A stretch of 64,000 nt of DNA from Aristaeella lactis (GTDB lineage Bacteria; Bacillota; Clostridia; Christensenellales; Aristaeellaceae). Shown here one piece after another: positions 30,370 to 51,513 of this stretch. The translations under genes and the position numbers were made by a program. The stretch's first letter is position 1. Every line of letters begins with the position of its first letter. The notes below the pieces were generated by a model that saw only the letters and a list, made by a program, of their open reading frames with translations, was not told the origin of the DNA and ran no database searches. Location of the stretch: assembly GCF_018118585.1 (NCBI RefSeq), contig NZ_CP069421.1:1488001-1552000 (forward strand), read 5' to 3'.

Positions 30370-30498
30370 TGTCATCCTGAGCGGAGCCTGCGGCGGAGTC
30401 GAAGGATCTCCCACGGATTCAGAGCGAAACAACTTCATCCGAAAGCACACTGCCCAAGTGTCATTTCGACCAAGCATCAGCGCGTGGAGAAATCTCCG
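30370..30498. repeat. Two copies of a GTCGAAGGATCTCC-type intergenic repeat
   Basis: Copy 1 (30370-30433): TGTCATCCTGAGC ... GTCGAAGGATCTCCCACGG, then ATTCAGAGCGAAACAAC. Copy 2 (30459-30498): TGTCATTTCGACCAAGC ... GCGCGTGGAGAAATCTCC. The same family is found at 48396-48532. No coding potential is seen. Confidence 0.8.
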
Positions 30499-30520
30499 CC
30501 GAAGGACGCATATAATCAAT

Positions 30521-30547: not shown

Positions 30548-30552
30548 TCCCA

Positions 30553-30592
30553 CCATTGTTCATTGTTAATTGTTCATTGTTCATTGTTCATT
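30553..30592. repeat. Tandem 7-mer tract (ACAATGA type)
   Basis: Plus strand: near-tandem TTCATTG/TTAATTG units, about six heptamers (minus strand ACAATGA x3, ACAATTA, ACAATGA, ACAATGG). It abuts the inverted copy of the zinc-ribbon gene's end. Confidence 0.9.
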
Positions 30593-30640
30593 GTATCTGG
30601 ATGAGAGCTGAATCATTGATTCAGCCTCTCATCCAGATAC
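30593..30640. repeat. Inverted repeat made of a gene's terminal codons and their copy
   Basis: The right arm (30617-30640) is the coding sequence for the last residues (YLDERLN) of the 30613-31308 gene. The left arm (30593-30615) is its inverted copy, lacking one base, with a one-base centre. The gene's stop codon lies at the start of the copied arm. There is no T-run, so it is not a standard terminator. Confidence 0.92.
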
Positions 30641-31308
30641 TCTGTCTTCCCGCCCGTCCTGGCGGCATACCCCTGGTACAGCGCTTTCCACAGCTGCTCC
30701 CGCTGTTCCGGCAGCAGATTCTCGTCTTCCTGAATCCGCCCGATCATTTCCGCCACAGGCACAGCAAGTTTTTTCTCCTTGTTTCGTTCGAGCTGGAACC
30801 CGAAGATATTCCCCATCACCTGGTTGTTTCCTTCCAGGAACAGTTCCACATATTCCCGGCAGAGACGCTGCAGATACTCGTTCTGCTTTTCCTCCGGATT
30901 ATCAAACCGGTTCAGGCACCTTTTCAGTTCAGGCGCGTCAAACAGGCAGCTGCGCATCTTGTCCTTCTTCTCTCTGGAAAAATCCTTCGGCTTCCTGTAG
31001 AACTCCAGCGCCCAGCACTTAATGACGGAGAAATCAAAAACGCGGCCGCGCGTCTTTTCCTCTTCCCCGACAAACAGCATCTCCCATTCGATCTCCCGGT
31101 TTCCGGGGCAGGCATCCAGCCCTTTCTGCAGGATCTTCTTCCGTTCCGGATAGCTGGTCACAGCCCTGGCTTTCCGGATCCACTGTTCCGCTTCCTCATT
31201 CTGAGGTTCTGTTGTGCTCTTTATTTCCAGCTTCGTACCGCAGTAAGGGCAGAAAGCCATGTCTTCGCCTTCAATGGTTTTGCCGCATTGTCCGCAGATG
31301 ATACTCAT
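30613..31308 (-). CDS. Zinc-ribbon protein of unknown function
   Basis: A 231-residue cytoplasmic protein from the ATG at 31308, behind GAGGTGAAAAT. The N-terminal zinc ribbon is CGQCGKTIEGEDMAFCPYCG (Cys 5, 8, 20, 23). A TPR-like helical region follows (AEQWIRKARAVTSYPERKKILQKGLDACPGNREIEWEMLFVG), then a charged helical domain. There is no membrane span. Proteins of this layout are common in Clostridia, without known function. Its 3' end is remarkable: the last codons are duplicated as an inverted copy just past the stop, followed by a 7-mer repeat tract. Confidence 0.82.
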   Translation of the reverse strand: MSIICGQCGKTIEGEDMAFCPYCGTKLEIKSTTEPQNEEAEQWIRKARAVTSYPERKKILQKGLDACPGNREIEWEMLFVGEEEKTRGRVFDFSVIKCWALEFYRKPKDFSREKKDKMRSCLFDAPELKRCLNRFDNPEEKQNEYLQRLCREYVELFLEGNNQVMGNIFGFQLERNKEKKLAVPVAEMIGRIQEDENLLPEQREQLWKALYQGYAARTGGKTEYLDERLNQ

Positions 31309-48395: not shown

Positions 48396-48532
48396 TGTCA
48401 TTCCGACTAAGCGTTAGCGCGTGGAGAGATCTCCCACGGATTCAGAGTGAAACAACCTTGTCCGCAGGCATATACTCCCCGTTGTCATCTCGACCAAGCG
48501 CAGCGCGTGGAGAGATCTCCCACGGATTCAGA
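48396..48532. repeat. Two further copies of the GTCGAAGGATCTCC-type repeat
   Basis: TGTCATTCCGACTAAGC ... GCGCGTGGAGAGATCTCC, then CACGGATTCAGAGTGAAACAAC (from 48396), and TGTCATCTCGACCAAGC with the same body (from 48483). They share most bases with the copies at 30370-30498. Confidence 0.85.
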
Positions 48533-48578
48533 TTAACTCAACTCTGACCGAAGGGATTCCTGTCTCTCTCACCAAATA

Positions 48579-48612
48579 ATTCTGAATTCTGAATTATGAA
48601 TTATGAATTGTG
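48579..48612. repeat. Tandem 7-mer tract (CATAATT type)
   Basis: Plus strand TTCTGAA x2, TTATGAA x2, TTGTG, ending three bases from the stop codon of the CotH-like gene. Confidence 0.88.
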
Positions 48613-48614
48613 CC

Positions 48615-50609
48615 TCACTCTTCCGGCTTCTTATTCGTCTCTTCCAGCAGCTTCAGCGTCTCACCGAAATACTCTTCCACCTCGGCGTTCGTCAGCTTCA
48701 TGGCCTTCTTCAGCATCTCCGGGATCTTCTTCGGTCTGACCCTCGCGTAATACTTCGTGGCGTGGATATTCTTTTTCCAGTTCTCCATTTTCATGTTTTT
48801 CCAGCGCTCAATGTGCCGCGGAAGGATCGGTTTCAGCACGCTGATCACATCATCGAAATGCTTCTCCACGTTATCCCAGCGGAACACGGTGGACAGCAGC
48901 TCGCTCACCCGCCGCAGGAACCGTGCCTTCATCTCCGGCACCTTGAACATGGCATTCAGCGGTTCATGCCGGAAGCCCTGGATCTTCGCGTTCAGCGCCT
49001 TGATGTAATATTCGATCGGCGTGGGATCAAGGTTGCGCCAGCAGGCCTCCACGTCAAACAGCAGGTACTTCCATTTGCCGCCCGGCACCCGGTAAACCCG
49101 CACATTGGTAAAGTCCACATTACCCAGGATGATCTCATAGGCAGCGTGGGTGAACATATTGTCAATGTCCAGGCGTTCCTCCACCCAGGCCATGTTTTCC
49201 GGATCGTTCAGGTCCTTCTTTTTGCAGAAGTCGCACAGCTCCAGCCAGTCCTTGTTGTCCCCGTTCTGCAGGAATTCGTCCGTTCCCGTGCGGGCCAGGA
49301 TATCGATGTTGTCGATGTCCTGTTCCTCCGTCACGCCTTCATAGGCGGCCACGAAATACTTGTTGATCTTTTCCCGCAGGTTATAGTGGCCCCAGTACCG
49401 GCCGTTGATATAGACCTGGATCACCTCATGATCCTGGTACAGGATCCCCTGCCCCTCCGCCAGCGAGCTGGCCACAATATCCCGCAGGCGTGTGGCGGAA
49501 TAGTCGCTGTTGGCGGAACGCAGCAGCAGACTCTTATAGCTGTCATAATCCCGGGTCGGGAACGGATTGAATTCGAACCTGTCTGATCCCCAGGCTTTCC
49601 GGGCATACAGCGCGATGCTCTTCTGGCTGTTGATCCGGGCGCTGTGTCCGGAGCAGGTCATGGTGCCCATCTGGCTGATCTGCTTCTCGCCCTTGCTGTT
49701 GAAGTATTCAATATGCACCGGATACTCGTATCCCTTGGAGTAATTCGGAATACTGCCTGTACCCTTGGTCAGCAGTCCGGTTTTCTTGCTGAACAGGTAT
49801 TTGTCATCTGAGATCAGGGATACGATAGCAGTCTGCGGCGCGTCATCAATAAAGAAGGTTGCGCCGGCCGTTGAAGAGGAAACTGCATCCTCCGCGAATG
49901 CCTTCACCCGCAGCGGTGTGGTCTTTTTGATCTTCAGTCCCTCTGCCGGAAACTGCTTGCTTTTCTTTGTCGGGGTCTCACCGTCCGTGGTATAGCGCAG
50001 GTCCGCGCCGTTTTCACCCCGTACCTCCACCGTAACGCTGCCCTCATAGAAGCCGGCCGCTGTCACGATCTCCGGTTCCGCGGTGCGCCGTGTATATGCC
50101 TCCGTCTCGTTCTTCTTCCCCCTCGTGGGATTTTCGAAGAACCCGTAGGCTCCGCCGCCGGAAGGCATACCATAGCTGACGCATCCGTACTGCTCGGGCA
50201 TCTTCAGCTTCTGGATCTCTTCCTCATCCCGGTCTGTCAGCCGCAGGGTTTCCCCGCTTGAGGAGATCTTGAAATCCGCGTAGAAGGTATCTCCTTTTCC
50301 GGGCGTTTTGTTTTCCTCTCCCGTGCACCAGATCGTCAGGTAATCCCCGGCCTTCAGTTTTGCCCCGTCCGGGAATGTGAATTTATAAAGGTCCTTCTTG
50401 CTGTCTGTAAATCCCCAGCCTGAAAGGTTGACCGTTTCCTTCCCGTTGTTATACAGTTCCACCCAGTCCCAGGCATGGCCGTTTTCATAATACCCGTTGG
50501 AAGACATCACCTCATTGATGACCACATCCGCCCGAGCCGCTCCGCCAAAGCACACAAACCAGATAGCAAACAGACAGATAACTCCTGCCACCCCTTTGAT
50601 TCTTCTCAT
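48615..50609 (-). CDS. Exported CotH-family protein with lamin-tail domain
   Basis: A 664-residue protein with a signal peptide (residues 1-27, GGAARA|D). A lamin-tail domain covers about 28-150 (VVINEVMSSNGYYENGHAWDWVELYNNG, NLSGWGFTD). A chitobiase-like C-terminal/FN3-type module follows (AAGFYEGSVTVEVRGENGADLRYTTDGETPT). A CotH kinase domain lies at about 270-560 (SARINSQKSIALYARKAWGSDRFEFNPF, LLLRSANSDYSATRLRD, VYINGRYWGHYNLREKI, WKYLLFDVEACW). Spore-coat CotH phosphorylates coat proteins; secreted relatives are often on surface or cellulosome-like proteins. GGAAGGGGACAGACAG-ATG supports the start. A 7-mer tract abuts its stop. Confidence 0.9.
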   Translation of the reverse strand: MRRIKGVAGVICLFAIWFVCFGGAARADVVINEVMSSNGYYENGHAWDWVELYNNGKETVNLSGWGFTDSKKDLYKFTFPDGAKLKAGDYLTIWCTGEENKTPGKGDTFYADFKISSSGETLRLTDRDEEEIQKLKMPEQYGCVSYGMPSGGGAYGFFENPTRGKKNETEAYTRRTAEPEIVTAAGFYEGSVTVEVRGENGADLRYTTDGETPTKKSKQFPAEGLKIKKTTPLRVKAFAEDAVSSSTAGATFFIDDAPQTAIVSLISDDKYLFSKKTGLLTKGTGSIPNYSKGYEYPVHIEYFNSKGEKQISQMGTMTCSGHSARINSQKSIALYARKAWGSDRFEFNPFPTRDYDSYKSLLLRSANSDYSATRLRDIVASSLAEGQGILYQDHEVIQVYINGRYWGHYNLREKINKYFVAAYEGVTEEQDIDNIDILARTGTDEFLQNGDNKDWLELCDFCKKKDLNDPENMAWVEERLDIDNMFTHAAYEIILGNVDFTNVRVYRVPGGKWKYLLFDVEACWRNLDPTPIEYYIKALNAKIQGFRHEPLNAMFKVPEMKARFLRRVSELLSTVFRWDNVEKHFDDVISVLKPILPRHIERWKNMKMENWKKNIHATKYYARVRPKKIPEMLKKAMKLTNAEVEEYFGETLKLLEETNKKPEE

Positions 50610-50643
50610 CTGTCTGTCCCCTTCCTATTGGTAAAAAACATCT

Positions 50644-50677
50644 CAATTGTTAATTATTCATTGTTAATTGTTCATTG
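50644..50677. repeat. Tandem 7-mer tract (ACAATTA/ACAATGA type)
   Basis: Five near-tandem heptamers (minus strand ACAATGA, ACAATTA, ACAATGA, ATAATTA, ACAATTG), joined directly to the inverted copy at 50677. Confidence 0.9.
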
Positions 50678-50747
50678 TAAATGGATTGCGCGTTATTATA
50701 TGAAATAACTCGTTATTTCACATAATAATGCCTTGCAATCCATTTAC
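50677..50747. repeat. Inverted repeat made of a gene's terminal codons and their copy
   Basis: The right arm (50712-50747) contains the last codons (KWIARHYYVK) and stop of the FRG-domain gene. The left arm (50677-50709) is an inverted copy: GTAAATGGATTGC matches exactly, a 6-nt stretch is replaced by 3 nt, and the last 17 nt match with one mismatch. The loop is 2 nt. Confidence 0.92.
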
Positions 50748-51513
50748 TGAGTCCTTCCAGGCCCGGATACAGCAGCCGTTCACTGATGTTCAGGCTGTCC
50801 AGCATATCCCGTACCCGCCATCTCAGCTGCTTATCGATCACGTATTTCACCGTGTTCTGGGTATGCTCATTCAGGAAGCCTTCGATGTCCGTCATGCCCA
50901 TCGGGATCACCGAGAAGAACGAATACTGCATGATGATCCGGTCATTCGTGCTGGGAGGCTCAATAATGACCATGGACCGGTCACCCATATCCTCGTCATA
51001 CTGGTACAGGCTGTCCGTGATCTTTGTCAGCATCTCCACGGAAAACAGTGTGGTCTGTTCCCTGCCGACAGCCAGGCGGTATTTCTCCGGCAGATGCTCG
51101 ATCTGCTCGTTCATGTCGATCCGCCACACCACACAGTCATGGGCGTCCATTTCCTCCAGGCATTCTTCTGTCATGGCAAAATGCAGCGCCACCAGTGCGG
51201 AATGCGTCCAGTCCAGCAGGCGTGTTGGCAGTCCGTTATGCTGTCCTGTGATCATCTGGTACCATACGCTCTGCGTCACCGTCGGATCCTCCCGTACGGC
51301 GTATTTGGCAAAGTTGTTCAGTATGGCAGGCTCCAGCGTCTTCTGCTTGTCCTTGCAGCAGCGGCTCAGGCTGGTTGCCATCTTATACTCGGAATCCGGC
51401 ATCCCCCGGTACAGGTATCCTGATCGGTTCCGTTTCAGTTCGGGCCTGTAATCCTGTTCCGAAAGCAGGGGCATCAGGTCTTCCAGTGTTGTGATCCGGA
51501 CTTCCTGAATCAT
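50713..51513 (-). CDS. FRG-domain protein
   Basis: A 266-residue protein behind GGAAGGGAGTGTGGCGTT-ATG. The FRG signature is visible: YLYRGMPDSEYKMATSLSR (about 33-51) and QHNGLPTRLLDWTHSALVALHFAM (about 90-113). Later come SFFSVIPMG and a C-terminal helical part (LRWRVRDMLDSLNISERLLYPGLEGLSKWI). FRG domains are common in bacterial and phage proteins, some tied to defence islands, but their activity is not established. The gene is flanked by surface-glycan and CotH genes and not by other defence genes. Its 3' end carries the inverted copy and 7-mer tract. Confidence 0.86.
   Translation of the reverse strand: MIQEVRITTLEDLMPLLSEQDYRPELKRNRSGYLYRGMPDSEYKMATSLSRCCKDKQKTLEPAILNNFAKYAVREDPTVTQSVWYQMITGQHNGLPTRLLDWTHSALVALHFAMTEECLEEMDAHDCVVWRIDMNEQIEHLPEKYRLAVGREQTTLFSVEMLTKITDSLYQYDEDMGDRSMVIIEPPSTNDRIIMQYSFFSVIPMGMTDIEGFLNEHTQNTVKYVIDKQLRWRVRDMLDSLNISERLLYPGLEGLSKWIARHYYVK

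Follow-up and report, generated by a model that had tools for sequence, protein, structure and literature searches.

Inverted copies of gene ends lying directly beside tandem heptamers are a real, repeated composite structure in the genome of Aristaeella lactis (G000). The structure was seen behind an FRG-domain gene and recurs at dozens of gene ends, and we give a slightly better than even chance to the reading that it is produced by fold-back copying when replication switches template at the edge of a short heptad array. Coordinates of the features at the FRG and 30.6-kb sites refer to the window, the whole stretch of 64,000 nucleotides that was analysed.

The FRG gene end folds back against a heptad tract

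The FRG-domain gene (50713 to 51513, minus strand, 266 aa) was identified by a profile match to PF08867 (E 1.3e-21), and its stop codon is the centre of a near-perfect palindrome at 50677-50747 that is joined to heptamers. On the plus strand, 50677-50709 pairs with 50712-50747, giving arms of 33 and 36 nt around a 2-nt loop, TC (50710 to 50711, no strand assigned). The gene-side arm (50712 to 50747, minus strand) consists of the last codons, KWIARHYYVK, and the stop of the gene, and the inverted copy (50677 to 50709, minus strand) forms the 3' arm on the sense strand, where it runs directly into the heptad tract CAATGAACAATTAACAATGAATAATTAACAATTGA. This tract (50643 to 50676) has five units of the AATKAAN type on the minus strand, the outermost being imperfect. 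A first-pass annotation had described the gene end as inverted against heptamers over 33 to 36 bases with a 2-nt loop, and had noted a 6-to-3-nt replacement and a single mismatch in one arm; the pairing was confirmed, and the differences are GCG versus AAGGCA and ATATGA/ATGTGA. Within the window, TTCATTGTTCATTG with at most one mismatch had six matches, compared to 0.02 expected. The next gene is co-directional and encodes a protein with lamin-tail and CotH domains (48615 to 50609, minus strand, 664 aa), behind which lies an array of a different heptad family with the consensus AATTATG (48578 to 48609, no strand assigned).

The FRG site had been put forward as the second, independent case of such a junction, the other being found at 30.6 kb. 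There, the copied 3' end belongs to a gene at 30613 to 31308 (minus strand), whose N-terminal zinc-ribbon matches fall below curated cut-offs; a stop-centred palindrome (30593 to 30640, minus strand), with arms of 23 and 24 nt by eye and a one-base indel, is followed by a heptad tract at 30552 to 30592 (minus strand). The FRG site is indeed a real case at an unrelated gene, but the cases number not two but dozens in the genome. The proposal that GTA is the common junction trinucleotide had to be dropped, as NMATTGTTMATTGTAN occurs at three places in the genome and the sharing of GTA is chance. The outermost palindrome base is the G of GTA and the TA part belongs to each gene; what both joins have in common is the heptad phase. 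Near heptad arrays at window positions 30370-30510 and 48400-48560, and near several tracts elsewhere in the genome, a dispersed repeat of GTCATCTCGACCGAAGCGGAGAGATCT type was also seen.

Palindromes meet dispersed heptad tracts in phase

The 7-mers are tandem and occur in many dispersed copies, with 72+61 genome matches to TTAATTGTTCATTG at no more than one mismatch, compared to 6+4 for the reversed control. For scoring, 67 rows of TTMATTG tracts were extracted by script from stretches round the listed places plus the window; five of these rows come from L014, some loci gave two each, L020 and L039, where the repeats are weaker, gave none, and beyond 2.14 Mb the sample consists of exact matches, where sites found only with one mismatch may be missing. 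Among the matches listed, 48/67 rows consist of five in-register units if an imperfect outer unit is included. The tracts are not embedded in a larger repeat, as by eye their flanks differ between sites except for the pairs L014/L014 and L029/L040. L029 (+, 1990) and L040 (+, 1991) share a long identical downstream sequence starting from TTGAGCAGTTGTCCAAATC, which is a separate repeat. Also among the matches listed, the T-rich tract strand is plus for approximately 1.0 to 2.6 Mb and minus elsewhere, with about four exceptions, and the two genome halves so defined look like putative replichores.

Among the matches listed, 30/67 rows have a flush stem (score ≥8, within 2 nt) where the tract faces the gene. 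With the same threshold, stems were found on the far side of 2/67 tracts and at 20/3000 random positions in the same loci. When the score was lowered to ≥7, 34/67 rows had a stem within 4 nt of the tract, 31 of them within 1 nt, and 27 of those 31 showed a gap of 0 and the same heptad phase. Since the tracts were delimited in unit register, any other phase would have appeared as a gap. Pairing enters the first unit by at least one base in 25/31; there the unit's outermost position, which is C, A or T, complements the gene base, and the palindrome therefore ends at the start of AATKAA. The FRG stem, interrupted by an indel, was missed by the ungapped finder and is therefore not counted among the 31; followed by hand, it obeys the same junction rule. 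The arms of the flush stems scored by this ungapped finder measured 7 to 21 nt, and the stems are locus-specific, following the local gene with no family consensus. The same arrangement at unrelated genes calls for a common element or mechanism, as the first-pass annotation had argued.

At four loci, L016 (+, 2354), L019 (+, 570), L032 (-, 645) and L058 (+, 1051), a constant GTGAAATA spacer was observed to alternate with differing perfect palindromes, and these arrays are possibly a related product.

Gene ends, stop codons and the RNA

In 42 rows, a predicted sense stop lay between -40 and +45 nt, the genes being taken from a simple codon model. The median distance from stop to tract was 16 nt in rows with a flush palindrome (n = 24, with FRG added by hand) and -3 nt in rows without one (n = 18; P = 4e-4 for the difference). 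From these distances, copy-less tracts mostly abut or contain the stop, and the copy, where present, fills the gap. The palindrome axis was within 7 nt of the end of the stop in 14 of 23 scored cases. Flush stems were found in 23/42 rows with a near sense stop and in 11/25 of the remaining rows, which is not a significant difference (P = 0.45).

The baseline consisted of 223 gene ends, taken from the window and the extracted stretches; as these stretches were chosen for tracts, the shares are not genome averages. A stop-centred palindrome with a score of ≥9 and without a T-run was present at 18/43 stops followed by an AATKAA tract, compared to 11/175 stops without a tract, and at stops with an antisense tract 0/5 palindromes reached a score of 9. 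An array of period 7 lay within 100 nt of 23/29 palindromes versus 37/194 other gene ends; among periods 4 to 10, none other than 7 reached the threshold near gene ends. In two of the 23 (L019 and L022), the palindrome is formed by the array itself, and of the 11 palindromes without an AATKAA tract, L028 (AATGCAG), L043 (TTCACTC) and L050 (AATTCAT) adjoin other heptad families.

The period of the tracts could itself have a function, as repetition every 7 nt brings the TGA or TAA within AATKAAN into each of the three frames and would make the tract an all-frame stop cassette. A stop was found in two or three sense frames in 66/67 listed rows, and some genes, e.g., metK, take their stop from the tract. 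However, K = A would keep the stop as TAA, yet it occurs in one unit only, and AATGCAG (L028) and TTCACTC (L043), which do not have a stop in each sense unit, occupy the same place. Weakened by this unit spectrum and leaving the palindrome unexplained, the cassette is a very improbable reading.

The minus-strand RNA at the FRG palindrome was predicted to form a very stable stem of -36 kcal/mol (z = -7.0, with 0/200 shuffles as good), which would agree with the stop-codon hairpin and the A/U-rich heptads being a selected mRNA element, whose stems arise and persist by selection for pairing. The stem would shield the upstream message, and the unstructured heptads would be an intergenic processing or binding site. 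The co-directional next gene at 30/42 sites with a near sense stop, and near-perfect pairing at the same stop across species with different sequences, also argue for such an element. On the other hand, coding-bound arms of up to 36 nt probably exceed what stepwise selection would yield, and 18/42 near-stop tracts are without a flush stem; we consider selection on the mRNA possible but on the whole doubtful as the explanation. Mismatches in the stems showed no G-U excess (G-T 4 and A-C 8 in G000, 7 and 7 in the relatives, with a stem finder that penalises G-T like any mismatch). The 67 terminator-like stems of the genome that served as control showed none either (G-T 9, A-C 8), and because these behave alike the count does not discriminate RNA selection.

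Rho-independent termination was rejected, a U/T-run following the stem in 0/18 tract-side palindromes with a score of ≥9. The terminator scan gave no match at the FRG palindrome, its sole match being at 50573-50589, and an Rfam search of 50400-51000 only gave no match at gathering score, four miRNA-family matches all being far below it.

Copies follow their own gene in related species

The triple-unit tract is present in five genomes of the same genus (G001, G004, G007, G022 and G035, with 89 to 91% identity at metK) and had no match in 31 other same-genus and 24 more distant genomes; G064 has weaker tract matches. The relatives were sampled as 40 stretches from the listed places and 27 orthologue loci, which is not a random sample, and among the matches listed 31/57 tracts of the five relatives were flush with a stem (score ≥8, within 3 nt), 24 of them with a gap of 0. 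By eye, the same stop has different near-perfect palindromes in different species, for example at L011, galK, win30551 and L037. The copy matched its own gene better than it matched another species' gene in 79/98 comparisons, equally in 10 and worse in 9; these were made at five loci with usable stems and one genome per species, and they are not independent because some species share identical strings.

At the FRG locus, the G004 copy follows the G004 gene (20 versus 13 to 18.5), and in G000, G007 and G001 the copy scores as high with some genes of other species as with its own. The orthologues in G007 and G001 have copy and tract, that in G004 a copy and a two-unit tract, those in G022 and G035 another heptad type and no copy, and that in G015 a stem of approximately 6 bp by eye, followed by heptad-like sequence. 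The first-pass annotation had held that the same palindrome without heptamers in homologous FRG genes would mark an inherited terminator; none of six orthologues shows this. It had also called the copy aged, which agrees with the G000 copy reading GCGCG and differing from its own gene's GCAAGG. The FRG genes of all five relatives read GCGCGG, and GCAAGG is found in the G000 gene and in the outgroup G015. The 6-to-3 difference may reflect two events, the replacement of one gene version by the other and the loss of 3 nt from the copy, with either polarity.

Partial alleles were also seen by eye among the orthologues. At dnaB, the tract stands at the stop without a copy in G007 and G035, and in G000 a copy lies between stop and tract. 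L057 has a tract without a copy in G000, G001, G004 and G035, and L028 has other heptads and no copy in G022 and G035. Neither tract nor copy is present at L029 and L028 in the outgroups G015 and G062, or at win30551 in G062. In G004, SerA has a partial palindrome and no tract. The metK palindromes lie wholly inside the coding sequence with no apparent insertion; metK has weak stems in the tract-less G015 and G062, and L034 has a stem in the tract-less G062.

The joint absence at L029, L028 and win30551 is what would be expected if hairpin and heptads were one mobile insertion unit, inversely duplicating its target behind the gene, and the dozens of dispersed copies, with a common phase and mostly a common tract length, could be read in the same way. 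The copy-less tracts at dnaB and L057 speak against such a unit, as do the other heptad families that occupy the same place with or without a copy. Moreover, no RVT_1 match was found in G000, G001, G007, G022 or G035, and beside the four Y1 transposases of G000 lie not heptads but G-rich palindromes particular to these genes. We judge a mobile unit unlikely.

Dedicated enzymes as a source were likewise considered. Telomerase- or RT-like synthesis was rejected on the RVT_1 searches, negative in five of the six tract-bearing genomes (G004 has 4 matches), and reverse transcription is an unlikely source of the repeats. RAYT action is an unlikely source of the stems, the Y1 genes being flanked by other palindromes at four G000, two G035 and two G007 loci; Y1 proteins are also common in tract-less genomes, with a match in 25/41 searched genomes. 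The four G000 enzymes (G000:C1:1156010, 1166780, 2210448 and 2773513; approximately 252 to 288 aa), which we take to be RAYT-like, each have palindromes of their own beside them, whose core is GGGACGG or GGGGACGG. A further candidate, which we consider quite unlikely, would be a dedicated activity that folds back the DNA 3' end behind stops, makes a copy of the end of the gene and attaches or adds phased heptads, altering gene ends in concert genome-wide. This would be a chromosome-healing-like process without an RVT_1-type reverse transcriptase, with the GTGAAATA-spaced hairpin arrays as a second product.

Proposed template switching at the array edge

Template switching, the reading we favour, would start from short arrays of the intergenic heptanucleotide kind, mostly of five units or about 35 bp and often directly 3' of stop codons. 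The replication machinery would repeatedly switch template at the gene-side edge of the array; the nascent sense strand would fold back near the stop, inversely copy approximately 7 to 36 nt of its own gene end, and resume at the first AATKAA of the array, leaving a palindrome that abuts it. Later switches within the hairpin would use the 5' gene arm as template and, by quasipalindrome correction, keep the copy matched to a drifting gene. A coding gene end repeated in inverse over as much as 36 nt would be the product of copying, since building it step by step does not seem credible. We infer that replication does the copying and in which direction, and that repeated switching, instead of or together with selection for mRNA hairpins, maintains the copy; the stems may be kept up by mutation or by RNA selection, and we leave both standing.

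Some relatives lack the inverted copy of the adjacent sequence (the outgroups at L029, L028 and win30551; G007 and G035 at dnaB), and the better match of the copy to its own gene amounts to homogenisation of the arms within a lineage. In PMC8794818, template switching is described, in the part drawn on here, as able both to create and to correct hairpins, intrastrand switching as correcting according to the 5' base, and the leading strand of E. coli as the one where switching occurs more often. A 3' copy that agrees with the 5' gene arm would fit intrastrand switching. Against template switching stand the 9/98 comparisons that went the opposite way and the 10 that were equal, the wholly coding metK palindromes, flush stems that are not significantly tied to a near sense stop, and the 6/29 palindromes without a period-7 array. 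Template switching alone also gives no reason for the edge of a heptad array as return point.

Two poorly explained features, the heptamer arrays in many bacteria and the way in which perfect hairpins arise and are maintained, come together in this structure. Should template switching at the edges of arrays be the cause, the genus would offer dozens of natural replicates for measuring hairpin birth and arm homogenisation, and a near-perfect stem with co-varying arms would not by itself be proof of RNA selection.

Comparison with known systems

Among the papers listed by literature searches, none was recognised as coupling inverted copies of gene ends with heptad arrays. The four-unit TTMATTG pattern itself was found in at least 119 stretches from records of many phyla. 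Flush stems are rare in these, at 6/126 tract rows among the matches listed, where some arrays are counted more than once. Of the six, L098 and L186 are of the same genus or very like it, L186 resembling a G007 locus by eye, and L093, L137 and L156 (one array counted twice) remain. In L093 and L137, which come from an alphaproteobacterial and a Rickettsiales MAG, a single tract likewise adjoins a palindrome.

Known intergenic heptanucleotide repeats include TAACTGA of Beggiatoaceae and cyanobacteria and the G-rich heptads of Xanthomonas and Nostoc, and the cyanobacterial STRR belong among them. They share with the present tracts short head-to-tail intergenic 7-mers in many copies and scattered taxa. 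According to the part of PMC4692102 used here, heptameric repeats are more abundant than expected in many bacterial genomes and have received little study. The known heptads are G-rich (PMC4692102) or mostly lie upstream of starts, as do the Beggiatoaceae TAACTGA repeats (PMC4679880), and no flush copy of a gene end is described in the consulted parts of these papers; in contrast, the present tracts lie mostly behind stops, with an in-phase palindrome at about half.

The likeness to template-switch, or quasipalindrome, mutations is that local inverse copying yields and corrects perfect stems. Those in the part of PMC8794818 drawn on are single events in RNA genes, whereas here, if template switching acts, a single genome would have such events at dozens of gene ends, all associated with one class of repeat. 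Rho-independent terminators likewise place a stem at the gene end, but the present stems have no T-run. Palindromes behind genes and Y1-type proteins are known under the names of REP elements and RAYT transposases. The present genome has both palindromes behind genes and Y1-type proteins; it differs in that each stem follows its local gene and the Y1 genes are flanked by other palindromes.
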